A DNA stretch of 64,000 nt from Dipylidium caninum (lineage: Eukaryota; Platyhelminthes; Cestoda; Cyclophyllidea; Dipylidiidae), in NCBI GenBank assembly GCA_017562135.1, contig QEYB01000841.1, positions 930,001-994,000 on the forward strand. The letters run 5' to 3'. The translations under genes and the position numbers were made by a program. Each line of letters opens with the position of its first letter. Position 1 is the stretch's first letter. This document shows, piece by piece, positions 29,947 to 63,604 of the stretch. The notes beneath the pieces were generated by a model that saw only the letters and a program-made list of their open reading frames with translations, was not told the DNA's origin and made no database searches.

Positions 29947-30081
29947 TCAACGCAGATCCAAAGATGCTTGCGAGACGTTTGGTAGGCGCGCTTTAATGAA
30001 TGAGTGAAATTCTTCTGCCGACACCATCAGGACCAGGAAAATAAGGAGCAGACCGAAGAGGATGATCGTTGAGGTTCTCAT
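29947..30081 (-). CDS. Secreted short peptide 1 (44 aa)
   Basis: Signal peptide MRTSTIILFGLLLIFLVLMV with a likely cut after VSA (residue 22), leaving a mature part of about 22 residues (EEFHSFIKARLPNVSQASLD...) with a possible N-glycosylation site at Asn35. I start at the Met-Arg ATG (30081-30079) because the frame runs on upstream only without signal character, and because four other genes of the cluster also begin Met-Arg. Intronless. Orientation is the same as the next two members. No clear TATA box. Family unknown. The mature part is less basic than in the other members. Confidence 0.6.
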   Translation of the reverse strand: MRTSTIILFGLLLIFLVLMVSAEEFHSFIKARLPNVSQASLDLR

Positions 30082-31655
30082 TCTTGTAAACTGCGAAAAA
30101 GTGATTCTCCGTAGTCCTGAGGAAATGCTCGATTGAAACGTAAATTTATTGCACATGTTCCCAAGGCAAAGTAGACGAGAGAGTATTTTAATTGTCCCAT
30201 CCTGTACTTCGTACTCATATGAATTCAAATCAAATTATCGTGTGGATTTAAAATGACTTAAATAGCAAATGCGCGTATGGAGATCATAACATTAACCTTT
30301 TTCCTAACTTCGAGGTTTCTCATAGCTTGAAGTTTTTTACCGATCTTATCGGAAGTAAAACTATCGTGAGTAACTTACGCTTTCGTTATCTGAGTTGCCG
30401 TGGTTTTAGTTAACTTATTCCCAGTTAATTTTCGGAATTCTGCTACAAAAATAATTACAAATAAGGGCACTGTGAACAAAAGAAGTACAATGTAAATGAC
30501 CATTGACAAAAAAGCAAACATTTATTGCATAAGATTTATTTTAATTAACTAATCTGAAGACCGTTACTTTCAAAAAACAGACTGCCAGCCGCCTTTCTCT
30601 CAGAGTGTCGAACTTTGAGTAATTAATTTCAAATTAAGTTAATTTTAAAAAGGACACATCAAATTTGCATAACTTTTACTAACGTCCCTGTACTTTTGGT
30701 TGAACACCGAGTAATTGATGAAATCCCATCCTGGAAATCCTTAGATATTTTAGCAGGCATGGCGAATTTTTGGTTAGGTGTGGAAAATTTGACACCACCA
30801 GCCCGAATAGGAAAGATGTGGCTCCAAGCTACTACTTTTATCGTGACAATAAGTAGGGGTCCTCCTTCCATCTGTCACAGGGTGAGAAGTACGAGGTCTG
30901 CGGCATTCTGGTCTTAGCAGACTGATGGGAGATTGCAGCTGCTATTTCCGACAAATCTTATGCGGATGTAACTTCTGCATTTCCGTTCAGCTCTCGAAAT
31001 GGAGAGCGGGACAAATAGAAGACACTGGAAATATGCGACAAAGTTTCACTGTTCGGGCTTATTGCTTTCCCAAATTTCCCAGCTATAAAGACAATCTCTT
31101 CCTTCAACAGTATTTGAAACATACTTCGGCAATCATGAGGGATCAGTCGCTTATCATTTAAGGATCATCATATCTCCCTCCAAAAAGCGTTTCGTTAACT
31201 TCGGTGCGTGCACTGTTCCACGGAACTTTAGCTGCAATGGGCATTGTGCTTTGGCGAATTTCACACTTAATAAGAAGTGGATTGTGATGAGTACCCGGAA
31301 AATGCATTTGTCTACTCCCATTCGGACGCGAAGATGTACTTCAATGAAGTTTAAGGGGGACTCTACCGTTGTAAGACCAAGTCTAAAAAAATATTTGCCA
31401 TTTCAATTAATTAAAAAGACAAACAACTGAGGCCAAATTGATGCATTTCATCACCTCGATTAGACGCTATTTGATGAGAGCCTGTTGAACCCGCATCAGC
31501 CGGAAGAATGCACACAACTGAAAGTGACATTAACTTGGAGGGACTTTTTACTCTAGCCTGTATCACAGTGGTAGTATCGAACTCTCAATACACCTATGAT
31601 TAAGTCGTGCCTTTGTACGAGCCGAGGGAAGTAAGTGCTAGGGCGGGAAAGGGGG
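30082..31655. other. No supported gene
   Basis: AT-rich; overlapping short frames on both strands at 30.66-30.92 kb without signal peptide or splice borders. Confidence 0.4.
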
Positions 31656-31659
31656 AGGA

Positions 31660-31770
31660 GTATTGATTGGTAGATGCTATGTCCGTTTGGCTCCCATTGG
31701 TCTATTTCGCGGAGATCAATTAATTTAACAACCAATGGAGGTCGAGAAAGCAGCGCTTTGTAAATAAGAG
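31660..31770 (+). promoter_or_regulatory. Orphan CCAAT-box promoter module
   Basis: CCAAT boxes at 31666-31670 and 31696-31700 (both ATTGG) and 31732-31736, then a TATA-like TAAATAAG at 31761-31768. It shares the string GCTCCCATTGG and a following AACCAATG..CGAGAA pattern with the DMRT promoter at 3079-3155. No convincing reading frame follows: the first downstream plus-strand frames are under 20 codons. Confidence 0.4.
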
Positions 31771-32826
31771 CAATCGGATTCATACCTAATTTCAATATTC
31801 GCGGCAGTTAATTTGCACATCATATTTCATCCCAAATGCTCTATAATTAACTATTTCACTTCAAGCGGCCAGTCGGCGAACACCATCAGCATTTTCGTCG
31901 CCACTTAAGCTTCAGCCGTTTCAGACTAGTTTTAACACGCTCTATATCATAATGTGCTCTGAAATACTAGTATTATTGAAGTATGAGGGCCGCTATGACT
32001 CATGAGGAGAGAGGTTTAATTGTGAAGTCTGGCGCAATCGTAGGACTACACACGAATATATCCAGTAGTTAATCGGATCTTTCTGTCATTTTCATACTTT
32101 TCTCTGAAACATGATTCAAACTGGGGATTCTCGACTCTTCTTGTAAGATCGTCTTACACATTAATTTACTAAAACATTACGTTAGATCACCTCCCTCACA
32201 GGTAGCAAAGCATTTATCTAAAATGCCACGTTCCATTCGGTTGAAATTGACACTGTAAATTATCGTCACATGACCGCAACTTTGAAGAGCATTAGAGCGC
32301 AAATTCGAATAGGCGAGTGCCGACATCACTGCTAAGTAAGCATTCAGACAATTCAGAAAATAGGTAAGAAGGCTATTCTCTGGATTATTTGGAACACAAG
32401 AAAAGCATCTTCCGCATGTCTCATTCAACCTCCCTCTCCCTCCCTAGTAGTAGTAGACCTCTGACAGTTACGTAGAGCGCAGACAGCGAAATACTTTAAA
32501 AGGCATGCTCTCTTTTCTTCTCCATTTCAATTTATACAGACAAAAGTAGGTCGACAGCAGCGGTATCCGTAATACCTCTCCTATTTAGCTAAGATTTTCT
32601 TGCTCTCTTGAAAAGCAAGTTAGAAGAACTAAGATTTCGACCTGAGGAGAGGTAAAAAAAGAGTCCGGAGAGCACCCAGACCATGGTATATTTGTTCTTC
32701 AAATAATATTTAATTTTACTCAGATAGGTAAATAGACAAATAAGTAACCAATACACCAATGTTTACATGGGCGAAAGAAGATTATTCTCTGGTAGGATAA
32801 TGCATTAATTTAAAGTGAGAGGAGAC
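31771..32826. other. No supported gene
   Basis: Includes an ATACTTTAAAAGG TATA-like string near 32495 followed only by a 14-codon frame. No coding stretch recognised. Confidence 0.4.
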
Positions 32827-33135
32827 TCAATTGTACCGCCTGTGGCCTTTAATCCTGGCTAACGCCAATTTTTGTTCTTTCTCACGGCTCGCACCACTAC
32901 CAGCGGTATCGCGGATATATGCTAAATGGCTCTCCAAACTGTCATCGCCTGCTTGCTTTCGGACGAGATAGCGACGGGGAGCTTTATACTCGCGTTTGGA
33001 CGCATCCTTGTACACACGATATCGAGGTTCATGTATTACATACCCTTCCCCATGACGTCTATGCCGATAGCCTGAAGTCGAAACGGTCAGAAGAAGGAGC
33101 AGAAGACAGAAAACGTAGAGCGTTGACCCTTTCAT
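32827..33135 (-). CDS. Secreted basic peptide precursor 2 (102 aa)
   Basis: Signal peptide MKGSTLYVFCLLLLLLTVST with a likely cut near residues 20-22, then a Tyr/Arg/His-rich mature chain (YRHRRHGEGY; several Arg-Arg and Lys-Arg pairs) and a C-terminal part with the motif LESHLAYIRDTAG, then ALARIKGHRRYN and stop. The mature chain is strongly basic. The C-terminal half resembles that of the next gene (34226-34519), same strand, so the two are tandem paralogues. Starts upstream of this ATG would bury the signal peptide. Three CCAAT boxes lie upstream (33201, 33246, 33270) and a CRE-like TGACGTA near 33230. ATTAAA at about 32710 may be the poly(A) signal. Intronless. Function unknown. Confidence 0.72.
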   Translation of the reverse strand: MKGSTLYVFCLLLLLLTVSTSGYRHRRHGEGYVIHEPRYRVYKDASKREYKAPRRYLVRKQAGDDSLESHLAYIRDTAGSGASREKEQKLALARIKGHRRYN

Positions 33136-33194
33136 TGCCGAGAGTCTGAATGTGACACTTTCAACATCTGAGTTTACCATCGCGCAAGTAACGC

Positions 33195-33280
33195 ATCGTG
33201 ATTGGTCGAATGAAACGGCTTGGGGATACGTCATCCTGCCATCCACCAATCAGAGCGCGGGGTGGATAGATTGGTGCCAG
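33195..33280 (-). promoter_or_regulatory. Triple CCAAT promoter of peptide gene 2
   Basis: CCAAT/ATTGG motifs at 33201-33205, 33246-33250 and 33270-33274, 66-140 bases before the start codon of the minus-strand gene. No TATA box seen. Confidence 0.5.
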
Positions 33281-34225: not shown

Positions 34226-34519
34226 CTAGAAATACCGAAGTCGACGTCTCCTTCGTTGCCGCAGAAGCCTATAAGCGAGTTCTCGACTCTCACGTCCTCC
34301 GCCCAGACTGCGCAGGTAGTTTAAGTGGTCCCTGACTCCCCTGGCTTCTACAAATCTCTCCTTTTCTGGAATCACCGCAGACTTCTTGTAGATCGGGAGC
34401 TCCTGGCTTGTAGGGACGGGCAATTGGTGCACTTTGTAATGCGTGGCGACACAGAGAATTAGTAGAAGGAAGAGCAGTAGGAGAGGAAGGCAACGGAGAA
34501 AGCGACAGGCCTTTGGCAT
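34226..34519 (-). CDS. Secreted basic peptide precursor 3 (97 aa)
   Basis: MPKACRFLRC then an almost pure Leu/Phe core (residues 11-23), likely cut near ATH (residues 25-27). The mature part has YKVHQLPVPTSQELPIYKK, then VRDHLNYLRSLGGG and RESRELAYRLLRQ, and a C-terminal Arg cluster ending LRYF. It is highly basic. It shares an IYK/VYK element, the motif [DS]HL-x-Y-[LI]-R, a Gly-rich hinge, an LA element and a terminal RY with the neighbour at 32827-33135. CCAAT boxes at 34602-34606 and 34694-34698. The C-terminal RYF recalls RFamide/NPF peptides, but there is no Gly for amidation. Intronless. Function unknown. Confidence 0.75.
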   Translation of the reverse strand: MPKACRFLRCLPLLLLFLLLILCVATHYKVHQLPVPTSQELPIYKKSAVIPEKERFVEARGVRDHLNYLRSLGGGRESRELAYRLLRQRRRRRLRYF

Positions 34520-34529
34520 GATGGCGGCG

Positions 34530-35060
34530 AAAATGACTGTTACCTACCGCTCTCAAATTGAGTTTGAGGTTTCATCAAAAGGACCTCGCCGAATTTTGAA
34601 ACCAATGGAAATTTGATTATGGTTGCAGGATCCACTGGGTAGACAACATGCCTAAGTATTTTAATAATACCGACTCACTAGCTGTTTCAACGGCCAATGG
34701 AACGAAAGCTCTGCAGTTCGACGGTGATGTACTTAACCGTGATGGTGGAGCAGATGCCAGGTGAAATCTGTCAAATAAATTCTAGTAAATAAAGTCTAAT
34801 AAAGTCATTCTCTTTCCTACATTTTTTTCCAACTTTCGATTGAAGATTTTATGACGGACCTAAATTTGTAGACAACATTCACATCGCATTGCTGTTTGCC
34901 ATTCTGCCACCAAGATTTCATCTATGAAGTAGCTCGCTATAAGATATGACATAGTGTCGTTCAAGCGGTCTTCGCAGGAGCCGAGAAAGAGGTTATCGGA
35001 ATCAATTACGATGAAAGAACAAACTATACCTTTCCTCTTAATCGTGTTGCACACTCAACT
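34530..35060. other. No further gene; upstream region of peptide gene 3
   Basis: Holds the two CCAAT boxes described for the gene at 34226-34519. Otherwise nothing recognised. Confidence 0.4.
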
Positions 35061-35137
35061 CGAAGATGAGCTTTTATTATTCTCGTCAGGATTTGCCATT
35101 TCCAGCGTCTGGACTGAACGGCAATGTGAGAGACCCG

Positions 35138-35323: not shown

Positions 35324-35390
35324 GAAAAAAAGTTAATTGAAGGAAAATGACTTAGAAGTCAGCCTAGAACGCAGGTCTGATGGCACACGG

Positions 35391-35397
35391 TTTTATA
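35391..35397 (-). promoter_or_regulatory. TATA box
   Basis: TATAAAA on the minus strand within GCGTATAAAACCG, placed for a start of transcription near 35361. Confidence 0.5.
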
Positions 35398-35399
35398 CG

Positions 35400-38330
35400 C
35401 AGGGGAAAGAGTCGTGAATTAGCGGACTCCGTAGGATGGTGGCGTAACTGCCCTTTATAATCGCTGCCTCGTTGCAACTGTGTTTTAGGGCGGCAGTGTG
35501 AAAATTTATATTTCAGGACTACATCAAAGCATGGGTCTGCAAAGCTATTAGAGCATAGGAAAACGATTAAAATTGAAACCATTTATGCCCAGACTTTGCC
35601 TTATATCTGGATCTGAAGCGCTCAGCCTACTTATATTTGTTAGTAACATGAGTTATCAGTTGAACTACTCTCATATAACTAAATGGCGCAATTGTTGGCA
35701 TTATTAAGAACTAATGGTGGACAGACGGAGAAAGTAAACGATTTAAATAAGTCTCAAATGGGAAAAGCATTTGGCATTAAGACTCACCAGTCCTAAGAAG
35801 ACCGGCATATTTCATCGGCTTGGAGTTGCTAACATCTCAGCAATTAACACCCGACAACGATTTTAAAAAGACGTAGGTGGCACAAATGCAAAAGCAATTT
35901 GTTTAAACCTTAATAGACTACTGCATAAGGACCCAAAAGCCTCACTCGAAATCTATTTTTGAATCAAGGAGAACAGCCAGCGACATGGAATAAGCAGGGC
36001 TGTTAGTCGTTAATCTACTTACTTCATGCAGACTTTACAGGGCCCACTTCACCGATCATAAAACGACATAGTCAGCTTTGAGGAATGATTCTGTTTCCAC
36101 CCTTCCCACCGACAGCGGAGAACAAAAAAGTAGAGAAACGGAAAATGATCAATTAGGGTGAAATGCACATCTGAAAGGGAAAGTAAAGTGTTGAGTTAAA
36201 GGCAACTCACCTACTCTGGCTTTATGGGAAAAATATAGTCTTAAAGAAGTCATAAATGAGTTTTCTGGGCCCCACGAGCAGTGAATATTTTATGCGCCAC
36301 CAGTAAACCAGGCGTTGAAGTGGCTCTCAACGCCAGTCATTTAAACCGCCTCCATTCCGAGCTGCTCCCTGATATTTGCCTTTCTGCCTTCAGGGCGGAA
36401 GACTTTTCCGTGGAGCGTCTACTGTAGAACCATCGATAGTTTTTTCTTGAATACGAACCTCAGTGACTAATAACTCTTGTTACCACTCTTTTAAGCGTTT
36501 AACTTCTCAGTGAGTTAAACTAGACGATTTCTTCTTCACTTGTGACTTTGTCGAGGTTACAAGAATAATTTTGTTGAGGCTTAGCTGTTTGGTAGGAGCA
36601 TTTCGTTCGGTGAGATGATCTGCATACGCAATGCCCAGCCGCCCATTTGTAAGAATGTTTGGCTACCTACATCGAGAGCAGGGAGTAATTTCTTCCGCCT
36701 CTTTCAACACTACAAAAATCACTCCCGAGGTAGTCGAGGAGGTTGCATCCACACGTAGCTCCTGACACCGCCATTTCAGATGCATCGTAGAATGAAATTG
36801 ACGCGAAACAATATTTTATCAGTGACCACCGGGGAAGGCGTTGTGGTATGCCTAGGGGAGAGTCGAAGCAACACTAAGCTGTGAGACATGCCTCATGTGC
36901 ACGGCGTCGATGGAGGTGAGGACGAGTCCGATCGCCGTAGAGGAGGACTTATTAAGTAGTATTAAATGAAGAGACGTAAAAAGGGAAAGGAATGTCCACC
37001 CACCTCTGCAGCCTGGCTTTCTGCCGAGGCTTGTTGAGCAGTTGAGCTACTCCAGGTGCTCACACTATCTCCAATTCACGTCTAAAATTATTGAATCTGA
37101 GCGCACTGGGTGGAGAATGTGCGCGTCAGACGCTGGTTGATAGGCAGTTTGGTTAACTGCGATGAGAGATTTTCGAGCGATTTCTCGCAAAGTTTCACCC
37201 AAACCCAGTGTGAGACGAAGTACCGATCGCCTGCGTTCTCCGCCTTCTTTAGGAGAAATGAAGAGAGCGGAGCGCCACGCTGGCGATAGCATGAGATGAG
37301 GCGGGCCCCGGGAATGCTGCGCAACGGGGACCGAGGCGAAGACGAAGCGAAGATGACAAGTGAAGGGCGCGCAGTTCCCGCAGAGGCAGCAGGCAAAGGT
37401 GTCAACTAAACGTCAAAATTTGAGCAGTAATTTGAATGCCTCGCATTTTCATTTGGAGTAGGCAGTTGTTTGTGTGCACCAATTTCTCCTCCCATATGAG
37501 ATTTTCATGAGGGTTTTATTTCCCAACGACAAACCATCAATCATGCGGTTGATTTCGCCACAACACAGAGAAAGAAGGCACAATTTGTGCTTAATTTTGC
37601 TCTCTGAAGAGGTGAATTCATGCATTGGTGTATTTTTTCATTTCTTGTGCGCTGCTGTCACCTTCTCCTCGACCGAAACTTGAGCCAAAATAGCAACTTT
37701 ATGGGGCCGAACTCCGTTGTCGAGGTTACAGTGGTCCAAACACCCTCATTTTCCTGCATTTTGTAAGAGACTCCACTCCAAAGGCGTCACTTTAAGCGTT
37801 ACTGTCACCGATTAGAAAGGATGCGAAGATTCCGTAGTCTACGGATTGTTTGGTCGCCCACTCGGGCCAACTGGCCTTCGAACCAGTGCCCGACGGTGCC
37901 CTCCTCGCGCCTGAAGCCACTTCTCGCAAAGCAGAGAGTTTACGACGGCGATTGCCGCACCAAAGCCAATGTTTTTTGACCTCACCTCTGTAAAAATAAA
38001 GGATGGTTGACGACCACCTTCACTACAGTAATCAAATTAATAAGAATAATCACTGACAACTTGTCAAGCCTGATAAACAGTCGCATCTCGTAAATTTAGC
38101 CTTTACTGGCTTGCGAGGACATCACTGATACTTGAATCCATCACCACGATAAATTGCACACCTCAGCAAAAAGAAGTCGCTTTGAAGGCGGCATCAATCA
38201 CAGGCAGAAACGGCAGCACCCGACACTTGCGCCTCTGGGTCTAATACAATTACACCGCCCTAGAGCCCCCCGCCCTCCCGACGCCCTCATCGAAGAGGCC
38301 TTTCAATCCTCCGCACCCTCGCCACCAGCG
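35400..38330. other. No supported gene
   Basis: Overlapping GC-rich minus frames at 37.07-37.40 kb lack a signal peptide or family match. A perfect small palindrome TCCGTAG-T-CTACGGA lies near 37830. Confidence 0.4.
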
Positions 38331-38335
38331 GCATA

Positions 38336-38408
38336 CCAATGGGCCTCTCGACTCACCTCAAATCGCCAATAGGAAGGCGAACTCGAGGACGAATGAGTGT
38401 GGATTTAA
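38336..38408 (+). promoter_or_regulatory. Promoter of peptide gene 4
   Basis: CCAAT at 38336-38340 and 38366-38370 and a TATA-like ATTTAAG at 38403-38409, about 45 bases before the ATG at 38452. A TCACACTT string near 38430 would suit a start site. Confidence 0.55.
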
Positions 38409-38451
38409 GGCGGAGTGGATGCCCGCCTCGTCACACTTACACCAAGTCGCC

Positions 38452-38691
38452 ATGAGACTCTGTGTCCTCACCCTCTGCGTTCTCGGCCTCCTTCTGCTGA
38501 CGCTTCCATCCAACGAGGTGATGGGCAAAAGTGTCTCCAAGCACCAGAATGGCGTCGCCTATAGAGCAAATAGTGTTTATGTGCCAAAAGGACACAAACC
38601 GAAGGGCATGAAAAAGAAGTGCACGGGCCACGGCAAGAAAAAGAAGTGTTACTACGTGAAGAAGGATAAGAAGAAGTGGTGGAAAATCTAA
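38452..38691 (+). CDS. Secreted Lys-rich peptide 4 (79 aa, two Cys)
   Basis: Signal peptide MRLCVLTLCVLGLLLLTLPS, likely cut near residues 23-25 (VMG), then a strongly cationic mature chain of about 54 residues: KSVSKHQNGVAYRANSVYV, then Lys runs around two cysteines (Cys57 in KKKCTGHG and Cys66 in KKKKCYYVKK) that could form one disulfide, ending KKKWWKI. The Lys/Trp-rich tail and small size resemble antimicrobial or heparin-binding peptides, but no family is recognised. The upstream in-frame CTG/ATG-like extension lies before the expected transcription start. ATTAAA at about 38772 may be the poly(A) signal. Intronless. Confidence 0.8.
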   Translation: MRLCVLTLCVLGLLLLTLPSNEVMGKSVSKHQNGVAYRANSVYVPKGHKPKGMKKKCTGHGKKKKCYYVKKDKKKWWKI

Positions 38692-38699
38692 AGAGGTAA

Positions 38700-39330: not shown

Positions 39331-39334
39331 GAGA

Positions 39335-40215
39335 TATGGTGGATGCGACAGAATTTCCCCAGCTGACTTCTGCAATTTTTCAACGAGTCCCCAAAGCAGC
39401 CTGTCATCTGGCGTTATCCTTATGCCGCACTACGTCTCTCCACCTTCTCGACCAGCGCCAACCTCTTTTCTTCCACTCTTTTCTCTAACATACCCACTTG
39501 CTGACAACACTCCTCCACATTTAGCTGATCAGTCAATTTTAAAAGCTCACAATGCATTCGCCTCGAATGTCCTGCCTCACACACACACACACACACACAC
39601 ACACTCGGAGATGGAGGGACCACGTTCTCCGGCCTCACGATGCGCCCCTTTCCTTGCGATTTTTCCCCTCGGTAGTCAACTCTTCATTCCCACTCCCCGT
39701 CCCCTTGAGAAAGGTCTCGCTGTTGCCTTGAACAGGCAGAGCTGCTCACGCGACAACGCCACCATAAATTCCTCTCACTTCAACCACGCGGCACCCGTCG
39801 TGAATGTCTCCGCGCCAATCCCCTCTCCGAATATAGTCCAAAATGCTTTGCTCAGTGGAAGGGAGACCTTCTGCCACCTCCCATGTTTTCCGGAAGGGAA
39901 TTTCCTCCAACACTGTCTCCACAACATCGTCGTCGCTCAAAGTCAGCCGTCCTCAACGTGGATCATCAGGAAGTTCACAATCATCTTTTTCACACCTTTC
40001 GAGCCATCTTCCGCACCTCCTATCACAAATTGTGCCTTCATCAAACCCAACACTTTCTATACAATTCTACCTGTCTCAGTATCATTTCTTCCCTGTTGAA
40101 TTTCGTATGAAATGGAGTGGGGCGAATGAAGTGCACCAGTGGCCACTGCTACACTATCGCTCCACACTTAGGACCAAGGGGAAGCAACTTTGTTTTAGTC
40201 AATTTGCCACCTCCG
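39335..40215 (-). mobile_element. Decayed mariner copy with CA microsatellite
   Basis: Minus-strand translation gives mariner pieces: DDDVVETVLEEIPF, WEVAEGLPSTEQSILDYIRR, and near 39370 a piece matching the catalytic-region sequence LEKLQKSAGEIL. Frames shift and stops interrupt. It carries an internal CA run (39578-39604), and a shorter run sits at the same place in the copy at 46680-47625, so the two are sister copies from the same burst. The long plus-strand open frame over this region is antisense and not a gene. Confidence 0.85.
39578..39604 (+). repeat. (CA)n microsatellite inside the mariner
   Basis: Perfect dinucleotide run of about 13 units, at the same position as a shorter GT run in the 47 kb mariner copy. 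Confidence 0.95.
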
Positions 40216-46675: not shown

Positions 46676-46679
46676 ACAG

Positions 46680-50703: not shown

Positions 50704-50880
50704 CCAATCCACTCTTTATCTAATCGCTCGCCTCAGCTCTGAAGCCTCCGAGAAGAGTGTTGCCTATAGCGCCCCCTGATTGGAAAGACAGGCCGTGAAG
50801 GCCATTGCCGCAAAGACTGACACACTCTAGCCTTCCGCAGATGTGTGACTGCGAAGAGACGGGATCTTTATCAACCCAAT
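50704..50880 (-). promoter_or_regulatory. Promoter of gene 7 (3 CCAAT + TATA-like)
   Basis: CCAAT/ATTGG motifs at 50704-50708, 50779-50783 and 50876-50880; GATAAAG (minus) at 50714-50720. Confidence 0.5.
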
Positions 50881-53580
50881 AGTGAACCCAGCCTTTCGAT
50901 GTGGAAGAGAGGCAGGAGGACTGGATGTTACCCCCAGCGATAAACTTTGTTTTGCTTAATTATCAGGAGTCGTCGGGAGGAGAGAAGAACTTGGTGAGGC
51001 TGTTTCTCACCCCATACCGGGGCCGATGACGCAAAATCAGGAGACAGATAAACAGACAGAGAGGTAGTTTGTTTGGTAGACCACTCACGTGGTTGCCGAC
51101 ACCGTTCTCCGCGGTGCCGTGGTCCTAGAGCCAAGCCGACCGCCGCACCGCCCTGGCCGACGCGACATCGGCGAGCGGCAGATATCTCGCCTCGATAGAA
51201 TAATTTTAATTTCACCCGTGTCTTCGATAGAAAAGATGAGGGTGTTAAAATGATGCCCATTTGTTCTAGGGAGATCCGCCTGTCCTACTGCCGATGCTGC
51301 TAAAGCAGGAGAATCTACAGCTTATCTCTCTGAGCTCCATTCTCTATGCTCCACTACAGCAATTGCATAACAAGTGTGGAAGGCCTTCCGCAAAAAGCGT
51401 CCGCATATAACAGGCAATTTCATCAAGCTGAGAACAATCAACTCCACTATTCACCTAAAGGGATCAAAATATTTAGATAAGATTGGAACAGGTTGGGGAA
51501 TAGGAATAAAGATGACAATCTAATTAGTTGTCATGGTGCCAGAGGTATCAAACAAGCGCCGTGGCCCGCAGTGGCTACTGTCAACAAACTGCGACGGCTT
51601 AGACTCCGACGTGGGTTTGCGGCTGCTAGTAAAACAGAGTGACTGGGTTCTGCTCGGGTTGACTTGTTGGCTTGGGAAATGAGCGCAAGAAATCCCACGT
51701 ATCTGTTTTGCCTATCCTCCAAGACTACCAAATTTCGGCCTCGCTACGTGGCGGTAGCATGGAGGATGTGGCAGGCATGATTGTGGAGTGAAGCCGGAGG
51801 GAAAGAGGGACACTGTCGACCAAGTTGCCGACAAAGCTGCCTAAGATAGTTTTTGAATGTGACGGCGACTCCGATTTGACTGGTTTACTATCAACTTGTA
51901 AGTAGTATGTTTTTGAACCGTCTTGACTTTCCATTAGGCACATGAACTCAGGCCCTCCGCCAACTCTCCTCCTCGCCGGTCACCTCTGTGCTCGCAAATG
52001 TCAGCGTTTTGGTTGAAAAAGGCTGTACAACTGGCTTAACTACCACTCCGCTTGCTCTACTGGCCCGGACTGTTGTCGGAGAGGTCTACAATCGCTTTCC
52101 ACTGCTTCAAAGTCGTGGAGGCGATTGACCGTGGTGTTCACCGCTCGTCCTGTATGTCGCCTATGGCCCCACCATGCTAATCGCCTATCGCTTCAACCTC
52201 CGTCAGGACATCATTGGCGGTTCTGAGGGAGTTCCAGCAGTCATGTGCCTGGGGAAGTCGAGAGAATAGGAGATACTAATGGGTGCAATCAGTTCTGTCA
52301 GAAGAGAGTTCGTGATCAACTAACTTTCCACATGACACCATATGTACATTTACGGAGATAATCATATCCGTGGTCTCCGAGGCAGATAATTCCTTGCACT
52401 CACTCCAGGCTTCATGTCCATCAGTTCGTCGTATGATTTCAGTAAATGTCAGCGCTCATGCTCCATCTCTTTCGAAGGCAACTTTATGCGTTTTTGTCGT
52501 TGTCAAACTATTATCTGCTCTAAGAAATGTCGCTTAGGGGAATACGTAAAGTTTCCACCCTTGCGGTCTTTCCCCATTCAGCATTTAGCCGCAAGAAAAC
52601 AGTCCACCTCGATCAGTGAATTATCACTTTTCGTAGGTCTCCTTTCCCCATAATATACCTTGTCTCTTTCGCCTCCACTCCTTACTTTGCCATTCTACTG
52701 ATGGGCAACTAGTAGGATCATTTCAACTGCAAGCGTTAAGGAATTAGCATCCGCTGAGCTCAAAAGATGCAGTCGGGAGAGAAGGATGACCATTTCATCA
52801 CCAAAGCCCGTCATTTCGACAACTTCGTGTTGTTGTAGTTGTTTCACGGTAGGTCTTAGAAGAGTTATACAATTCAGTGAGGACGGGAGAAGTTCAGGTG
52901 GGGCAAAACCTCTCCAAGATCTTAACTGAGGAAGTCGAAGGGATTGCATCAAATCCTTGACCCCTCAGTAAAAATGTCATTTTATGGAAATTGGGTGGCT
53001 GTGATTTCTTTCAATTTTAGTTAGTGTCGCTTTGGCAAATGCACAAAGCACCTCGGAGATTTCACATCACTTTCAGCATTCTGCCTTGGGCATAGGGCAC
53101 TCACACCACTTTCTGCTACCGCCTGGAGGGCTCAAAGCTCTCACTTCATACTTGTTCCTCGGAGCCATGTGCTCTAACAAGGCTGCAAAGTAGAGCGCTG
53201 TGTGGAGTTGCGTCGAGGAGCACAAGGCCTGGACCTAGTGTAGGCGCGCATTCCACATTGCATGAAAGAACATTTTCCTGCGAACGTGGTTTCTGGCAAG
53301 CGGATCACCTTCACTTAGTGCCTTAAGCTGACACATCTGGCATCTTAGAGTGTAGAAGCAGGGAAGGAGCGACTTAAGGTAAATATTGTGCAGATGATGG
53401 AGGAGCTCGTAATCATAGCTTGGTTCAAGAGAGAAGGAGCTTCTGGTTTAGCCCTCCATTCCTCTCGTCAGGGCTTTTAACCTTTGCCTCGCCCTCATAG
53501 TGAAGAGTGGACATGCAGAATCCTAACAACTGACAAAACGGGCAGCAACCTCTCTCGTAGTCGAGAGACAAAGAGTGCAA
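50881..53580. other. No supported gene
   Basis: A GC-rich island around 51090-51190 gives long chance frames. Otherwise short frames only. Confidence 0.4.
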
Positions 53581-53680
53581 AAGCCTTGCCATTGGTGAAA
53601 CGGGTTGTGCACTCACTGACCTCTTTCACGAGTTTATTCGAACCCCATAGAAGTCATTTGGCGCACGCCTCTCTCCTCTC

Positions 53681-54025
53681 ATGGTGTGGCTGCATCGCTC
53701 GGTCCAAATTCGGTTCCACCTCTCCCTCCTCCTCCTCTGCCTCACCTTCTTCATGCTCCATTTCTGCGTGCTGTGCAGCTCGCCAGGCATGCGAGTCAAC
53801 GTTTCTGTCGATAAGGAATCTGGAGAAGCCCTACTATCGGCGCGTAATGAATCTGGTGGTTATCAACCCCGTAAACTGACTCCATCCCGTCATCATTATC
53901 ATGTCCCTGCCAAGAATAATACTAGAATAAGGAAGAAGAGAAGGTCGGTTGCCCCCAAATCCGTAGAATCCGCTGATATTTGGGAGCGACTGGATTTCTA
54001 TCATTCTCTAATGCCCCATTTCTAA
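53681..54025 (+). CDS. Secreted peptide precursor 8 (114 aa)
   Basis: MVWLHRSVQIRFHLSLLLLC starts a long N-terminal region with a Leu/Phe/Cys hydrophobic core (residues 14-31), likely cut near SS (33-34). The lumenal part has N-glycosylation sequons at Asn40 (NVS), Asn56 (NES) and Asn79 (NNT), a His-rich spot (SRHHYH), and a furin-like RKKRR at 84-88. Cleavage there would release SVAPKSVESADIWERLDFYH plus SLMPHF. One ATTGG lies at 53591-53595; no TATA box is clear. Intronless. The C-terminal peptide after the basic site is acidic to neutral, unlike the cationic members. Family unknown. Confidence 0.68.
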   Translation: MVWLHRSVQIRFHLSLLLLCLTFFMLHFCVLCSSPGMRVNVSVDKESGEALLSARNESGGYQPRKLTPSRHHYHVPAKNNTRIRKKRRSVAPKSVESADIWERLDFYHSLMPHF

Positions 54026-56810
54026 CGCCCGGTTCCACCCTACTTACCCTTCTTCTCCTATTTTTGGTCCTGTTCTGACTGAGCCGGTCTACTGGGTTCC
54101 ACCGCGAGCACCACTTCCCGCTCCCCATCCCACCGTCTTGTTCAACTGACTTACCATTTCATTAGAGGAGATAAAAATAGAGTCCAGTGGCTTCGGTTTT
54201 GTATTCGCTTGCAGGGCGACAAATCAGCAAACACTCCTCTACGCATAGTCAAAAAAGTGGTAAGTTAAATCTACAAGAAGGCAAGCTCTGTGGCTTGGTC
54301 GTCTCGATGACGCCAGTTTGACCTCAGCCACACTAAAAATGTGAATGAGAGGCGCGTCAAAGGGGGAGGAAGGCCTTCTCCCTCAGCCTGCCAGCTCGGA
54401 TTCTCCTCAAATCCACGTCATCATTAAATATAAATTCAGGTAGCCAAAATATCATCTTAATCTAAAAGTTTGCCTCCGTTGTATGAAATTCTTCGAGCGT
54501 AAATAGTAGACCTAAGGAGTTACCTCGCCGCCCCCACATCGCCTGACGCTTACTTGTAAGCCCTAGAAAAAGTCATGTGCACTCTGGTGGGAGGTAGAAG
54601 TGGTCGAGAAGCAGCGCCTTCTGTTCTGGGGCAAATGAACAGGATTAGAAGGCAATGTGGGGGATAGTGGGCACCGAGAAGAGCCAAAAAGCGCTTCAAT
54701 GAACAATCGTTTGCTTCAACCATCGCTGGGCCACTTAGCAGTGAATGCATTCAGTGGGAGGAATAAGAAAATACCGAGGTCAAATTAGCATGCGTTGGAC
54801 CTGTTTGGTATTAATTTGTTTACCCTTCGTTTAAAAGTTATTTGGCCTAAATTCACATGATTCGCCTTCATTATGGTATTCGAGTGGTGTGTGATACCGC
54901 CTAACTTATTTAATTACACCCACATTAGAAATTCTCGACTGTCAGCTATGTATTGGGGGCGGTAATTGCGATTCAAGTTGCAATTCCCTTCCAGTGCAGT
55001 AGATAAACACACCCGAGTGAAGAGACCCTGCTCTGGAGTCACAGCGGGGCTAACGACTCGGTGCAGTCTTCAAGTGGACGTTACTGTATGCTGATCTCAT
55101 TTCCACCACCGCGGACTGGGCCACGAGGCCTACGATCTCACTCAGGAGAATGAGTAGGCCGAGAGCTATTTGACCCGTTCCTGGGGCATTTACTGCGTAG
55201 TTAATCGCATCGAGGCTTTGATCTTGTGCTTAGGCCCCTTGGAGAAAAATAATCAAACTCGTTAGTTGCATGTGGCCCACTGACCTCGAACCGGTGCATG
55301 TGAGTCCGGTTGAGAGCGTTTTCCTCTTCTGGTGGACGTTGCAAATGTCGAGCGGTTGAGTGGTTCAGGTTTAGCTCACGCATGCATGGCAATATCCACA
55401 CAAGGTGACAGGCCCACATCGTGTAAACGTTAGCAGGGTCTGTTCGCACCAGGTTGACTTGTTTGCCAAGCCAGTTTAGATCTCATCCTTTCTCTGGAAA
55501 CGCTGATTTTAGGCCGCGATGTTGGCGTTGCCATTATTTTTCACCTTCCCACGGGTATCAGTGCTACTTTGGCTGGGATGCCCTAGACCATGAAAATTTG
55601 GCAGTCAAAGTGGAGACGTGGCACATGTTTGCCATAGAAGCCTCGCTTATCATCACAGAGACGTGCACCGAGGCGCGCAAGAGGCCCACTTGACAGTATG
55701 GCGGTCGGCATGCAGCCGCAGTTTCGGGTCTGGTCTAAATCGCGGACCTGGGGCTCACTCCAGACGGACTTCAAGCAGTCCAAGGGCGCAAGGAGGCCTG
55801 GTTGAACACGGAGGAGGTGTCTGCACAGGCTGAAGCAGTGCCAACACTCAGAAGGCAAAGAGATTCATGGAGTTGGGGACAACATCCACACCTTAGCTGC
55901 GATACTCCCTGTTTATTCGCGTTTGCTTGAATTTCTCGCCCTAATCAATCCGAACACTGGGGTAGAAATGACGTCCCGGCTTAGACGACCAGCAGATGTG
56001 GCATTTTCGTTTGGGAGGGTGACAGTGTTGACGCAGTCACCCGATTTCACGATTAATGGGCTCTCCTTTTGGTTCGTCTTATCTCCTTACAAGACCAGGT
56101 TGAGTACTCAACGCACTTCTTGCCTGTCTTGTGCTTTGTCCACATAGTGGAGTAGTCGCCTCTCGCAGTCTTCTGGCCCTAAAAGAGGCGACTTCATCCT
56201 CACAAGAAAGTGTTGAAACGATTTTTACGTGCACTTAGAGTTCTCTTCGTTTGATAAATCAAGTTACTTCCGCGTTATGCAATCCACTAGGGACTGAGGA
56301 TCTTTCCTGAACTGTCAACATCTTCGTTAATTCACTTAATGAGAGACATCGGGTTAAAAGCCACCTTCCATGAACAAACATGTTCCTCACATCCTCGCCA
56401 CGTTTGACATGCCCACTGAGGGGGAAGTGGGATGAGCGGTGCACGACTTTGCTGCGTGAATTGGACGGCACTCCTTCTTGACGTTCGTGAATCCTTCTGT
56501 TAACTCGGGCATGAGCCTATACCGAGCCTTCCGGCCTCACAGTTTGCAGCAATCATAAATCCGTGTTAGTTAGACGGCCGCAAATGGGTCGGTCAATCTG
56601 TATGGAACAAAACATTTTCCCATTCACCCACACAGAGCATAAGAGGGGGGGGGGGGGGCAAATGAGCATAGAAGGACGGATTCATCTCGCAGATCATAAG
56701 GCCTACTGGAAAGTTTTGTCTGTTTTTATGTACACGTGACGCGAGTTTGGCTCTCTGTCATTATCACTCGATGCATCCAGACTGACTCAGAAAAATTAAA
56801 AAACAAAAAA
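54026..56810. other. No supported gene
   Basis: A GATAAAAAT TATA-like string at 54170 is followed after about 90 bases by a donor-like GTAAGT, possibly a non-coding first exon. Row 54790 has a truncated hydrophobic frame (MRWTCLVLICLPFV, then stop) that could be a dead signal peptide. A G15 run lies near 56646. Confidence 0.35.
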
Positions 56811-56814
56811 AAGT

Positions 56815-57745: not shown

Positions 57746-59460
57746 TCACGTCAATTATATTATGTAACAAGATTTACGGATGCTAAGAAAAAGACCATAT
57801 TAAATTTATTCTGTAGACATTATAAACCGGAGTTAGCAAAAAACTCTTTGGCCAGAAATTCGACTTAACGGAAAAATTTGGTCCCTGGCATTTTAACTTT
57901 GTGATTGCCCTGACGAAGCTCTTTTCTAACAAGACTCAAGTCTCCGCTCGACCCCTCCCCTCGGGCATGAGAATCCTAACACCGAAATTAGAGGTGAAGT
58001 AGAATTTAAAGGCCTTTCAACTTCCTCTTCCCCACCACTTATAACATTCCGGTTCTCAGTTTCTCGTAATTCGTTAGAAAATCTAAAGTCGAATCTATGC
58101 GGGGAAAGAATGCATTCTCCATTTGAATTTGACCTCATCCATTACGGAAAGCGCTGCAATTGTTCTGTCCATTAAGACTGGATTTCCATCTTAATGCAGC
58201 CTTCGGAATGGGAGACGTGGGAGCGTGAGAAGTGTTAAAAAGTGGAACCCGTTGAAGCCCAAGCGACCAGACAAATTGCGGCTGATGGGAGCTTTAACCG
58301 CCAGTAACTCGAACGGAGCACTAAGAGGCAACGAGACAATATCCACTTTCCTTGCTTGGCCATTGTGCTGAGGTGAAAGCGGTTAGGCGGAACGAGGTGG
58401 TACACCGAGTCGATGACGTTGAAATCTCAAGCTTTGAAGTGAAATGTTTGCGATATCCCGGGAATGTTCTACTTAGTTTCAAACTAACGCGGATAGAGAG
58501 AATTGTGATGGAGGCTCACTCCTTTGCCTGCGCGACCGTCCTACTCCCCGCATGTCACCCATCTAACATGGCGTTTTGTTGATTTCGACGGCCCAAGCAG
58601 CGGCTTCGAAAGCGGAGTTCACACAAATTCGACAAGTTGTGTCAAAGTGCCGATAAGGAGTCCCAAGCATGACAGGCTAGTAAACAAAGGAGTTTAATCC
58701 AGCGTCAGAAGTCACAGTTAAGGGGGGAACTAAACCATGTTTAAACTGAATTTTTTCAGTCTTTTTTTGCTGGGAAAGACGAGGTGAAATGAGTGGAATG
58801 GTCATTGAGTTGGATTGAGGCGCAAATATGATTCGTCCACAACCTCAGCCAATCTCAAGCCGCAATCCGGGCCTTCACTATGTTTAAGAGGACACGCACG
58901 GAGACTCTGGACAGGTAACAAGACTATTTTTAACCTCACGTCGCACGATTTCTTACCTCCCCCCCCCTCGAGGGGAAAGGGGATGGCTCGCTTAGTGTCT
59001 ATACTTCGCACAAGCACCTAGGCCACGATGCCTCATAGATGGACTGCGAAGCAAACTTGACTTCTCTCCGCTCTTCATGCTCAAACTCGCTAATATTTCT
59101 CCGTCGAAAGGTGTTCAGTGAAGCTATTGTCATGTTCTTACTCCTCCATCGACACACCTTTGAGACCTTCTAGTACTCACTGCAAATGCTGTGTCCTTTC
59201 AAAGAATAGGCGCAAGACGATAAAGTTACCGATGAGGTTACACTCATCGGATTTTGGTTGTGCTTAATTGGTGCACTTGAAGTTTCCCGAAGTTCGTGCT
59301 CTCTACGCCTAGAGGCAACCATTCCCCTGGAGTGAATTAGCACGCACGCCTGCCTCACACGCCCCGGCGCTCTCTCGCTCGCTCTCACTGGCACTCACGG
59401 CAACCAACGCTGCGCACAGCCTTGAACTACCACCGGTAATCGGGCGATAGCCTCAAGGTT
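57746..59460. other. No supported gene
   Basis: Short frames and a C-run near 58958. No signal peptide or splice-bounded coding stretch recognised. Confidence 0.4.
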
Positions 59461-59473
59461 GCCACCTTTGGGG

Positions 59474-59480
59474 TATATAT
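59474..59480 (+). promoter_or_regulatory. TATA box of peptide gene 9
   Basis: TATATAT in GGGGTATATATGAG; the start of transcription would be near 59503, giving a purine-rich leader of about 105 bases with a (GA)n tract. Confidence 0.6.
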
Positions 59481-59609
59481 GAGACGGGGAGAGCAGACAA
59501 ACTGTATTCGGCGCGACAGTGCGATCACTGGCAGCAGGGGGAAGAAGACACCTTGAAAGGGCGAGAAAAAGAGCGAGAGAGAGAGAGTAGAAAAGGGAGA
59601 GGAAAGAAG

Positions 59610-59785
59610 ATGATATCTCTCCTATTATCCATCACAATCGTCCTCACTTTACTCACGACTCTAGCCAGCGGCGCAAGTCAAAGTATAAGTTGCCTCTTGC
59701 CACGTCTGGCAAACCGAGGAGTCGGAAGAAGCTCAACTTGAAGTTCCTCTTGAAGCGGATGTGCTACCACCGGAAGGTCGAATGA
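59610..59785 (+). pseudogene. Secreted peptide 9, split between two frames
   Basis: ATG 59610 gives a good signal peptide, MISLLLSITIVLTLLTTLAS, ending at GAS. In the same frame the rest is short (SISCLLPRLANRGVGRSST, stop 59739-59741). In the frame two bases on, the sequence immediately after the signal region reads RKSKYKLPLATSGKPRSRKK then LNLKFLLKRMCYHRKVE, stop 59783-59785, which is the Lys/Arg-rich type of mature chain seen in its neighbours. That frame has no ATG, and no GT-AG intron of sensible size can join the two. Either a one-base deletion (real or a sequencing error), or frameshifting, or the short in-frame form is the true product. I give no joined sequence. Confidence 0.55.
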
Positions 59786-62700
59786 TTTTGAACACTTGAG
59801 TCACGAGTGTTAACTACTGCCAGTCGTCGCTCGAGGTGGATGATCTCTCAAGTTTCTCGCATTTACCTGTGTTTTTGTAATTTTTTTTTTACTTTTTAAT
59901 ATCAAAATTCTATCCTTATTGAGCTATGCATGTCTTGAATGGAGTGGAGTTTGCTACCGCCGTGTTTTCATGCCACTTAGTCATCTCGAAAGCAGTAATT
60001 AGAACAGAGCAATGAGCCGGCCAACTTGCAAGAGTATGCAAACACGGCGGAAATTGGAAGGAATTTTGTCGTTTGGGGAGAATAGTCGAACAGCCGTGTT
60101 TTGAGGCTTCATTTTCACCATGTTTACCGAGTAAGAGAAGATAAGATTGTCTCCCATCCGGCTCTTTGCCGTAAGGTGTGCTATACGCAAATTGCGTAGT
60201 CAAATCTGAAATGCTTAACACGAATCCCCTCAATTTTGCCACTTCAGCATCTTCTCTAAATCTTATGGCAACTGTCAGGGAGTTTAAGTCTGCAAGGATC
60301 CAAAATTCGTCAAATGGGGACTGAACATTCCAGCGTAGTCGCCATACACTCCGCGAAATCCTCATCCCAAAGGGAATTCTGGCGCGCCTCCATCGTTGTC
60401 TGGACCTCGTCGATGTTCGGACGAGGACAATCGTCAGCCTACCTTTGAACGAAGAAAGGCATCCCCGGGGTGAGTTGGTGCACGTTCAACTTGGCGCTTA
60501 AGACTACTGTGTGTAAGGCGCCCAATCACTCGCATCGCGCTGAGATGGATTACGTTGTAATGCCTTGTAATTTGAGCTTGCACGACTGAGGTGCTCACAC
60601 GCACCCTCCTCTCCCCTCACATCCACAAATAGTAACACTTACTCCTGACAAACCCTTATTTTTGAAAGCACAATGCGCGGTTTGAAATGCGCTAGGCCTA
60701 TTCTCAGGCGTAGTCTGATGTCACTTGCGCTTTGACAATGGCTAGATGGCTTCTGTAACCTAATCGAGTTGTCGGAGGCGTGGCATACGAAGGTAAAGAG
60801 GAGAGAAAGAATATAATGAGGTACTGTCACGTTCCTTACCGACCCAATTTTGATTGCGGGAGGGTTTTCGCCCCTCCCATGGATGGACAATGCGTGGGGA
60901 GTTATGTTTTCCTCACGGAGCGCATGAGCAAGGCGAAAGTCATTTACCTGGTCGTCACCTGTGAGACGTCACTCCTACCCTCGCAAAATATATTTTACCT
61001 TGTTTAGACGAAAATACGCTCCAACAATCTTGGAGGATGAGGCATTATTCACAAGAAAGTTTGCTTTACCGCTATGTTCGGAAGGGAAGCCTAAAATTTT
61101 AAAATTACCTTGCCAAAAGTTTCACTTGAACCGGTTCAACCGTTCCGCCCATGAACAAACTCCTCGTGTATCATTAGGACTGTTAAACTTACAGCTTCTA
61201 AGTTGCCCTTAGCTCCTACCGTCGTAACGATAAGAAACAAGAGGAAATCGCATCGTATTCGGATAGGATGGCAAGTCGTCCCAACGACCACAGTTGACTG
61301 GAGCCTTTGAGTTCCTGAGGTTCCATTTCCCCATACTCGAAAGCCCCTTTTCTTCATCCCAATGGATAAACCAGTTCGTGATGAAGTCCCCGCCCTACCA
61401 GCGGCGATCGCAGAGACGCAACCGCTTTCCCTTAGGAATAACAAGGCATTAGAGAGGAAAGCCATTGTATTAAAGTTAAGCTATACTTGGGCCTTAAAGG
61501 CAGTTTATAGCCCATAAGTTTCGAGGGGCAGACATTATAATGTGCCAACTTCAAAAGCAGCACACCCAGTGAAAATGCATTACTGCTGCCCGACATGTGT
61601 ACAACAGTTGCATGATGCTACGACTCGATTACGGCTCCACTGTGACCGGACTTCTTCCGACATCAGCTAGCCTGCAGTGGATTTTCAGGTCTAACAATGG
61701 CATCCGACATTATTAACTTGGCAATGTCGCCTTGGAGATTTGGAAACTACTGGATGTCAGGTGGCTTCTTCTTCTTCTTCTTCTTCAGTTATCATTGGCC
61801 AAGGGCCGAAGTATCTCATGTCTTCTGGGAAAATGACCGTGTTTCATGAAACAGTACACGTATTCAGGAAGGCTCTGGCTTCTATTTTATGCACTAAGTG
61901 AGTCTGCGCCAGTGATGACACCTTAAAGTTCACCTCCAGGTTTAAACCATCTTCCACAAGACTGTCGATAGGGCATGAAACCGACCATCATCAGCCCCAA
62001 CATAGTTTCACTACATGAAATACTTTCATCATGATGTGGATATTTTTCGTGTTGCATGCGTGACAATGTGCCTTACACACGCCGGGCATATTGACAATGG
62101 GTGCGTGTGTGTGTGCGTGTAACGCTTTATAGTACTTTCTTATAGTAGCTAGCTATTTATGAAGACATGAATCCCCTCACGGTGATGCCTAATGGTTCAC
62201 TAAAACACAAGGACACCTTGGTTCGCCTCTTGGGTGAACGTGCTAAATTTATCGTGGGAGGGGAAAGGACTGGAGACGGAGGCGGCATCAGCGCCGAGAG
62301 GAGATGGGAATGGTGAGAGGAGGGGAGTTCTCCGTAGCGGAGAAAATCTGTGCCATCACGAGGCCAGGGACAAAGGTCATCTCCAAAACAGGCTATCTTA
62401 GCATCCTTCACACACACAAACGCATTGAGTTAGCTGGAGGTTTGTAAGGCGACGCAACAAGTATGTCGCCTTTCGCGAAGGTTAACCGGCGATGGAGGCC
62501 AATTACAACGCCGTGGCTCGGTCGACCCTCCATCCACACTCCGTCGCCAAGACTGCTCCGCCAACAACAATTACTCTTTTGTGACATCAAAACCTGAATT
62601 AAAATAAGTTACTTTCCGAGTGCACCATGAGGGTTAAATATCCACTCAGTCTCATTCCTCGTTCACGCGAAGGACGATTACACGGAAATTACATGAGCGG
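59786..62700. other. No supported gene
   Basis: Short frames only. A (TTC)n run occurs at 61765-61786 and a GT-rich run at 62103-62120. Confidence 0.4.
61765..61786 (+). repeat. (TTC)n microsatellite
   Basis: About seven perfect triplets. Confidence 0.9.
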
Positions 62701-62709
62701 CTGCTTTAA

Positions 62710-62874
62710 ATGCTTGCGATGCTTCATGTGCTGGTGTTAATGCAGGTTATTCTTGAGGTGAGAGGTAATGCGCCACTACTTTTGTGTTTGCCAGTGGTTT
62801 GTCTTCGGGCTGCAGAGACCTCGAACCTGTCAACCGTCTTGGTGATGCCTGTCTTTCGCCACAAGTCGAGATAA
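62710..62874 (+). CDS. Possible short hydrophobic peptide (54 aa)
   Basis: ATG 62710 (second ATG 62719) opens a frame starting MLAMLHVLVLMQVILEVRGN, then APLLLCLPVVCLRAAE, ending FRHKSR and TAA. Signal-peptide-like at the start, and it lies between other cluster members, but a second hydrophobic stretch follows at once and the promoter is weak (TTTAAATG just upstream). Chance is quite possible. Confidence 0.2.
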   Translation: MLAMLHVLVLMQVILEVRGNAPLLLCLPVVCLRAAETSNLSTVLVMPVFRHKSR

Positions 62875-63400
62875 TTTCAACAGACTTCAGACTTTAATTA
62901 AGGCACCTTACGTCATCAGCGTGTCCCTTAGAGACAGAGGGGGGTCCGTCTCCACTTGGAGCTCGGCGCCAACGAGGTAATCAAGTAGACGCCTACTTCG
63001 ACAGGCGTCCTATCAACTGTGATAAGTTAACAGAAATTTAATTGAAATGCTGACTACCTTTTGCACTTAAGTGAAATCGAGGCTACCTATTCGAGTAGGT
63101 AACCCTAAACTTATACATACGTATTTCGCCTCCCATAGTTCTGCCAATGACAAGGTGGCATTAGCAGAGATTAGCCTCATACCGGTCCCTCCTAGCCTCG
63201 ACAGGCGATCTCTTCGTCCACTCGCGTTTTGTCTGTGTAGACAAGACGGTTAGTTGGGGAGAGATTGTAAGAGAAAATTAAATTCACCTAGAAATTGCCA
63301 CGTGCAGGCGAGACGAATCGAGGAATCTTCACTCGCTGGTGAAGTTACAGTTTTAGTTGTCAGCTGATTCGCAGATGAAGACCACACTTTGCCCCACGCA
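62875..63400. other. No supported gene
   Basis: Only short frames; this is the upstream region of the gene at 63476. Confidence 0.4.
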
Positions 63401-63407
63401 CATTGCG

Positions 63408-63415
63408 TATATAAG
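63408..63415 (+). promoter_or_regulatory. TATA box of peptide gene 10
   Basis: TATATAAG, the same form as in the 44 kb gene, 68 bases before the ATG. A TTCACTCACTG string near 63442 could hold the start site. Confidence 0.65.
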
Positions 63416-63475
63416 CAGAAAAACCCTTAATGTGAGGCGTTGTTCACTCACTGTGCAATTACGCCTCGGTGCAGA

Positions 63476-63604
63476 ATGCTTGCAGTATTTCTCTCTATTG
63501 TCATTTCTCTTATCTTCTTGCGCATCTTGGCGAGTTCGCAGTTTCCAAAAACGCAAGTCTTCCTCTCTCCATTCTCAAATCCAACACCGATTCCTCATGG
63601 GTGA
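63476..63604 (+). CDS. Secreted short peptide 10 (42 aa), C-terminal Gly
   Basis: Signal peptide MLAVFLSIVISLIFLRILAS, likely cut at SSQ (residues 20-22), leaving FPKTQVFLSPFSNPTPIPHG to the stop. The mature peptide is Pro-rich with a terminal Gly, the substrate of peptide-amidating enzymes, so it would end in an amidated His. The ATG lies just behind a strong TATA box. Two longer frames overlap it but have no signal peptide and no good start. Intronless. Unlike most members it is not strongly basic. No family recognised. Confidence 0.6.
   Translation: MLAVFLSIVISLIFLRILASSQFPKTQVFLSPFSNPTPIPHG

Follow-up and report, generated by a model that had tools for sequence, protein, structure and literature searches.

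We analysed a stretch of 64,000 nucleotides from the flatworm Dipylidium caninum (hereafter the window; positions 930001-994000 of contig C164, in a genome of 106.3 Mb and 920 contigs), and we favour with moderate confidence the reading that about 20 kb of it hold five to eight genuine short genes for secreted, mostly basic peptides, which are probably old local duplicates. These genes belong to ten short open frames, named here by kilobase p30, p32, p34, p38, p44, p49, p50, p53, p59 and p63, which an earlier prediction had described, without listing them, as a tandem family keeping its signal peptide and promoter while the mature part changes. The ten were recovered by a loosely thresholded scan, which returned 43 frames across the window, and they were equated with the predicted set because the outer edges (29947 and 63604), the extreme lengths (42 and 122 amino acids, aa) and the number of Met-Arg starts (five) agree. 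All ten are open as described. On the evidence of the sequence p32, p34, p38, p44 and p50 are taken as real genes, p49 and p53 are probable, p30 is doubtful, and p59 and p63 are unsupported; the local group therefore comprises at least five small secreted genes and probably up to eight. The eight frames from p30 to p53 are called the better frames below.

The first line of evidence is a local excess of signal peptides. They were rated with a home-made score, not SignalP, that looks for a small-residue cleavage site and for a hydrophobic stretch containing no charged residue, no strongly polar residue and no Pro; for p38 and p44 scoring started at the upstream ATGs 38419 and 44099, respectively. 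Density counts were drawn from 264 kb, namely the 35 kb of the cluster region and 229 kb of flanks. With the cut-off set at 3.2, 8 frames passed within the 35 kb and 4 within the flanks (Poisson p 2.8e-7). When the region was simulated 40 times by a second-order Markov model, the mean number of such frames was 0.42 and the maximum 2; an earlier version of the score had given 7 frames here versus 0.46 per 35 kb. A local excess of secreted short frames is thus supported. The eight frames are p30, p32, p34, p38, p44, p49, p63 and 30375-30521, the last lying outside the ten, while p50, p53 and p59 score lower (Table 1). We regard p63 and 30375-30521 as noise, and since both reach 3.2 the score alone is no proof of a gene. 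Of the four flank frames, one is a run of Leu, one a run of VCVC and one an unplaced frame of 56 aa; the fourth is a start recognised by eye as calreticulin. Moreover, five of the eight better frames start with Met-Arg, as the scan set and the prediction agree, and Arg follows any ATG in 9.2% of cases (binomial 2.9e-4, or 2.9e-3 assuming 15%).

The second line of evidence is an association with CCAAT boxes. We define an extended CCAAT box as CCAAT followed by A/C/G and then A/G, on either strand. Between -290 and -40 the eight better frames carry 11 such sites, with at least one in 6 of the 8, and the mean over 1018 control frames, with the candidates kept in, is 0.18 per frame; none of 20000 random draws of eight frames reached 11 sites and 0.045% reached six frames. 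In the 264 kb, 1044 frames begin with ATG and reach 40 aa, and 12 of these have at least two extended boxes at -260 to -60. Among the 12 are p32, p34, p38, p44 and p50, and also a DM-domain gene together with a frame that overlaps it. The other five comprise a secreted frame (C164:1030518-1030718), one lying antisense to the promoter of p44, and three for which no gene was recognised. The pair thus precedes 5 of the 8 candidates and 7 of the 1036 remaining frames (Fisher 4.3e-9). Plain CCAAT pairs gave 5 of 8 versus 67 of 1036 (6.5e-5), and for a stricter consensus the association was weaker (2 of 8 versus 4 of 1036; 7.6e-4). Signal peptides are enriched behind the pair: six of the 12 frames reach a score of 2.6 (47 such frames among the 1044; hypergeometric 4.6e-6) and four reach 3.2 (12 such frames; 4.7e-6). 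The predicted promoters of the CCAAT type are supported by these counts, and we take the paired extended boxes to be of the NF-Y type. That the rule also led to the DM-domain gene and to one more secreted frame is an unplanned validation of it, and for the same reason the pair marks some promoters generally and not this set alone.

TATA-like boxes were found ahead of p38, p44 and p50 (Table 1) and as TATATAAG at -68 of p63, and p53 carries a single extended CCAAT box at -92. The upstream ATG of p38 lies close behind its TATA-like box and is probably not the start used; that of p44 stands directly behind the TATA box. Poly(A) signals follow the stop codons of p44 (AATAAA after 101 and 122 bases), p50 (AATAAA after 80) and p38 (ATTAAA after 79).

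It is very unlikely that the whole set represents chance open frames without gene function. This probably does apply to p59 and p63 and, outside the ten, to 30375-30521 and 35364-35582, and p63 and 30375-30521 reach a signal-peptide score of 3.2 all the same; however, chance accounts poorly for the joint presence of signal peptide and CCAAT pair in the five best frames. As genes p59 and p63 are unsupported, since they span just 42-43 aa, have no CCAAT box and no poly(A) form, and fall in the lower half of the controls in synonymous codon score, where 94.7% of 947 controls are higher than p59 and p63 is mid-range.

Table 1. Candidate frames and their promoter boxes in the window (box positions counted from the ATG).
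Feature	Position	Strand	Signal-peptide score	Description
p30	29947-30081	-	3.69	secreted frame of 44 aa; completeness as a gene doubtful
p32	32827-33135	-	3.33	102-aa precursor of a secreted basic peptide, well supported
p34	34226-34519	-	3.91	97-aa precursor of a secreted basic peptide, well supported
p38	38452-38691	+		79-aa precursor of a secreted Lys-rich peptide, well supported
p44	44135-44389	+		84-aa precursor of a secreted Lys-rich peptide, most complete transcription unit of the set
p49	49092-49325	+	3.76	77-aa precursor of a secreted basic peptide, probable
p50	50266-50634	-	2.68	122-aa precursor with signal peptide and hydrophobic C-terminal tail, well supported
p53	53681-54025	+	2.86	114-aa precursor, long n-region ahead of the hydrophobic stretch, probable
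p59	59610-59741	+	2.98	43-aa frame, unsupported as a gene
p63	63476-63604	+	3.28	42-aa frame, unsupported as a gene
Paired CCAAT of p32	33199-33252	-		extended CCAAT at -117 and -70
Paired CCAAT of p34	34602-34700	-		extended CCAAT at -181 and -89
Promoter boxes of p38 (CCAAT, TATA-like)	38336-38410	+		CCAAT at -116 and -86; ATTTAAGG at -49
Promoter boxes of p44 (CCAAT, TATA)	43950-44092	+		CCAAT at -185 and -84; TATATAAG at -50
Paired CCAAT of p50	50777-50882	-		CCAAT at -248 and -149; ATAAAG at -85 (from the ATG at 50634)

The mature chains, whose cleavage points were set by hand, are basic in seven of the eight better frames, with net charges of +6 to +18, isoelectric points (pI) of 10.3-11.8 and lengths of 54-98 residues, in line with the predicted cationic character; for p32 the values are pI 10.3 and +11. 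The exception is p30, with a mature part of 22 residues that lacks basic character. Judged by their charge, signal peptides and size, the products would be secreted polycations of a gland or the surface. A known class is not claimed, because amphipathicity, amidation sites, cysteine frameworks and richness in Gly or Tyr are absent or at chance level. The best 18-residue helical moment did not exceed that of shuffled chains in any of the eight (lowest p 0.105; p50 taken without its tail), which speaks against cationic amphipathic antimicrobial peptides. A low-confidence structure model of p34, calculated with p32 and p53 as alignment (mean predicted local distance difference test 63, predicted template modelling score 0.24), places two helices beyond the signal peptide, at 52-72 and at 76-96.

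None of the ten frames matched a Pfam family over its cut-off; the best value was obtained for p44 (E 0.0076; 16.4 bits versus a cut-off of 27.3), and a match of p49 to the Conotoxin family (E 0.17) also stayed under the cut-off. A protein database that may hold few flatworms returned nothing at E 1 for p32, p34 and p50. Among solved structures (PDB), seven frames gave weak matches for four (best E 0.36) and none at E 5 for three. No report of such a cluster was found in the part of the literature covered by our search. The view that this is no described family thus holds for the searches made, including those in the worm's own genome, where the sole relative is the broken p53 copy described below.

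The composition of the chains bears on the possibility that they are structural secreted proteins of an eggshell, vitelline capsule, embryonic envelope or adhesive cement, cross-linked via Lys and Tyr. With 10% Tyr and 26% Lys plus Arg, p32 would suit such a role, p34 and p38 reach 7% Tyr, and short TATA/CCAAT genes would suit high expression; however, p44, p49 and p50 are poor in Tyr (2-4%), Gly amounts to just 0-11%, and neither Pfam nor the solved structures, searched with seven frames, offered a relative. We therefore consider a structural role unlikely. Slightly less probable still is that the frames encode precursors of neuropeptides or peptide hormones, from which peptides would be freed at dibasic sites and in part amidated. 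Such processing could use the GKR of p49 and the GRK of p44, both with dibasic sites ahead of them, and the RKKRR site of p53. Yet amidation-type sites, one each in p38, p44 and p49, are no commoner than in shuffled chains (chance of at least one 0.34-0.54 for the three chains), no repeated peptide and no RFamide end could be seen by eye, and the Pfam search gave no support.

Common descent was approached first through the signal peptides. Codons were permuted only within the n-, h- and c-regions and control frames were included; this replaced a region-blind permutation, under which any two signal peptides look alike. The kinship of p38 and p44 is clear, with 36 of 63 bases alike and none of 2000 permutations reaching this value. 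Three further pairs are suggestive, namely p30/p32 (35 of 63 bases, p 0.005; residues p 0.001), p32/p38 (DNA p 0.003, residues p 0.02) and p44/p50 (DNA p 0.036, residues p 0.0025). In total, 3 of 28 pairs had a DNA p of at most 0.01 compared with 1 of 80 and 0 of 45 in the control sets, and by residues the corresponding numbers were 4 of 28 versus 2 of 80 and 1 of 45. The claim of a kept signal peptide is thus well founded for p38/p44, weakly so for three pairs, and unproven for the rest. Among the 28 pairs of mature chains only p32/p34 (p 0.002, due to the C-terminal half of p32) and p34/p53 (p 0.003) exceeded shuffled chains at 0.03.

The worm's own genome was searched with single proteins of seven frames (p32, p34, p38, p44, p49, p50 and p53), only the best candidates being scored. 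For p32, p38 and p44 the search found the query itself only, and the best extra matches were at E 4.18 for p34, 1.18 for p49 and 2.99 or more for p50, so that these six have no near copy and all other matches lie at E >1. The only near copy is an 85% copy of p53 on contig C62. This 28.8-kb contig carries, inverted, the window segments 51157-51381 (90%), 52414-55492 (89%), 57900-62548 (89%) and 63297-63990 (93%) and lacks 62549-63296; the regions of p59 and p63 likewise have DNA copies there. With respect to the right-hand part of the window, C62 might represent a diverged duplicate or a second haplotype, or it might come from another source. Within the frame of p53 the two copies differ by 7.2% substitutions (25 of 345) versus 8.4% in the flanks. 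Window 52414-52813 differs from C62 by 2.5-3.5% and the next blocks by 8.6-12%; a frame at 52698-52964 has no Pfam match.

Several results weigh against a set of genuine and related genes. The frame of the p53 copy on C62 is broken by two one-base insertions, no extended CCAAT box occurs in the aligned 3.1 kb, and the proportions of non-synonymous (0.069) and synonymous (0.086) differences are close to neutral, a comparison that is uninformative on constraint of p53 because the copy is broken. The extended box was defined after the upstream sequences had been viewed. It is missing ahead of p30 and p49, as well as of p59 and p63, and p49 shows neither a CCAAT nor a TATA form within 300 bases upstream. 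The predicted nearby poly(A) signal stands for p38, p44 and p50, and none of four forms sought in 300 bases was present for p34 and p53, nor for p59 and p63. In synonymous codon score the eight better frames rank from the top 3.5% down to 45% among the 947 controls; the test, trained on 3075 codons, discriminates poorly, and even two recognised exons, partly contained in the training set, reach only 16% and 24%. No sequence feature singles out a role as polycation. Finally, none of the 28 pairs of 150-bp upstream stretches exceeded shuffled sequences at 0.02, compared with 5 of 63 pairs with other frames.

We consider the most serious alternative possible though less probable than local duplication: unrelated, lineage-specific short secreted genes may have been gathered by chance or in a permissive gene-poor region, without common family, gland or task, and the likeness of their signal peptides would be convergence on Leu-rich, pyrimidine-rich DNA. 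The missing near copies of p32, p34, p38, p44, p49 and p50, the unalignable upstream stretches, the rarity of likeness among mature chains, the mixed strands of the frames and the CCAAT pair at the DM-domain gene all fit this explanation. It is at odds with the region-wise permutation result for p38/p44, with the Met-Arg starts, and with the finding that 6 of the 15 CCAAT clusters of the 264 kb fall within 31.6-50.9 kb. Two parts of the original prediction are not supported. Against a tandem family stand the mixed strands and the lack of near copies of the seven frames searched apart from the broken one of p53, and a promoter kept in sequence is disfavoured by the upstream comparison and by the occurrence of the CCAAT pair at the DM-domain gene and the distant secreted frame.

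Under the preferred reading of old local duplicates, each gene would be a compact unit of one continuous frame, encoding a signal peptide and a mature chain; the uninterrupted frames suggest that introns are lacking. Five genes would be transcribed from promoters with two extended CCAAT boxes and sometimes a TATA-like box about 50-85 bases ahead of the ATG. After entry into the secretory pathway, the products would be freed of their signal peptide and in some cases perhaps cleaved at basic sites. Outside the cell they might act as polycations binding anionic surfaces such as the glycocalyx, the egg or larval coat, or host or microbial membranes, and p50 could be held at the surface through its hydrophobic C-terminal tail, which by eye resembles a glycosylphosphatidylinositol (GPI) anchor signal. 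Probably the genes go back to old local duplications, after which the mature part changed fast, because traces of kinship persist among some of the signal peptides and among the chains of p32, p34 and p53. It is also conceivable, but improbable, that the region is a nursery in which one module of promoter and signal peptide was reused ahead of unrelated, newly formed basic mature chains. If so, new secreted peptides would arise in place without an exon-shuffling intron.

Comparison with known systems places the set among clustered lineage-specific genes for secreted peptides, a kind already known. Schistosome eggshell genes are short and intronless, encode secreted proteins and have CCAAT/TATA promoters. 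Our literature search found no paper joining these features. The present frames differ in lacking Gly/Tyr richness (Gly 0-11%, Tyr 0-10% across eight mature chains), which sets them apart from eggshell or vitelline proteins, with p32 coming nearest. In venom superfamilies of the conotoxin type the signal peptide is kept while the mature part changes. Their mature peptides are rich in cysteine, unlike the eight chains here with 0-2 cysteines each, and a conotoxin-like superfamily was therefore rejected; kinship of the signal peptides is clear here for one pair and suggested for three. Flatworm neuropeptide precursors are short and have a signal peptide and basic cleavage sites. The frames share these traits but not the repeated or RFamide-type peptides, none of which was seen. 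The antigen B genes of the cestode Echinococcus are clustered. Antigen B comprises small secreted flatworm proteins of about 65-71 mature residues with identities down to 26.3%, encoded by two exons with one intron, the first exon coding the signal peptide, and containing Asp-rich stretches (PMC2919375). The present set resembles antigen B in consisting of small secreted flatworm proteins; in contrast, a single open frame encodes both signal peptide and mature chain here, and most chains are strongly basic. Membership in the antigen B family was thus rejected on features such as gene structure.

If transcribed, the genes would add secreted peptides without relatives in the searched collections from a flatworm lineage rich in parasites. 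Genes of this sort are easily overlooked in annotation, since they are short and without introns. The combined rule of promoter and signal peptide offers a cheap route to more of them and to testing the reuse of signal peptides.

Some additional observations concern the frames and boxes described above. Directly ahead of the p30 ATG a pyrimidine tract and AG were noted by eye. A different frame overlapping the end of p30 (29813-29992, minus strand) is open for 60 codons, 44 of them beyond the p30 stop, and may be due to chance or belong to a broken longer gene. Three clustered CCAAT boxes at 31664-31738 have no frame of at least 40 aa close behind; a 39-aa frame starts about 140 bases beyond them on the minus strand. 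The secreted frame at C164:1030518-1030718 (L022:6518-6718) has three CCAAT boxes and, by eye, a splice-donor-like site near its end, and it is probably exon 1 of a secreted gene with several exons.

Regarding the surroundings, no conserved multi-exon gene was recognised at 29-64 kb, where the Pfam check covered the ten candidates and four other frames. The DM-domain exon (doublesex/mab-3 type; 3244-3573, plus strand; Pfam E 1.9e-23) has three CCAAT boxes 104-162 bases ahead of its first ATG, and a sex-related type of transcription factor is hence located near the peptide cluster. In the mitochondrial cox1 gene of the genome AAA stands on conserved Asn positions and reading continues through TGA, in agreement with the flatworm code. 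A selenocysteine tRNA gene lies at 14331-14416 on the minus strand (Rfam 79.5 bits, also found by ARAGORN). An inverted repeat pair at 39426-40216 and 46676-47457 is 91-100% alike and has many relatives of 63-76% across the genome; by eye it resembles a mariner-type transposon, without confirmation by Pfam. A further inverted repeat at 25874-26352 and 27832-28340 has arms that are 90-95% complementary and about 1.5-1.9 kb apart.

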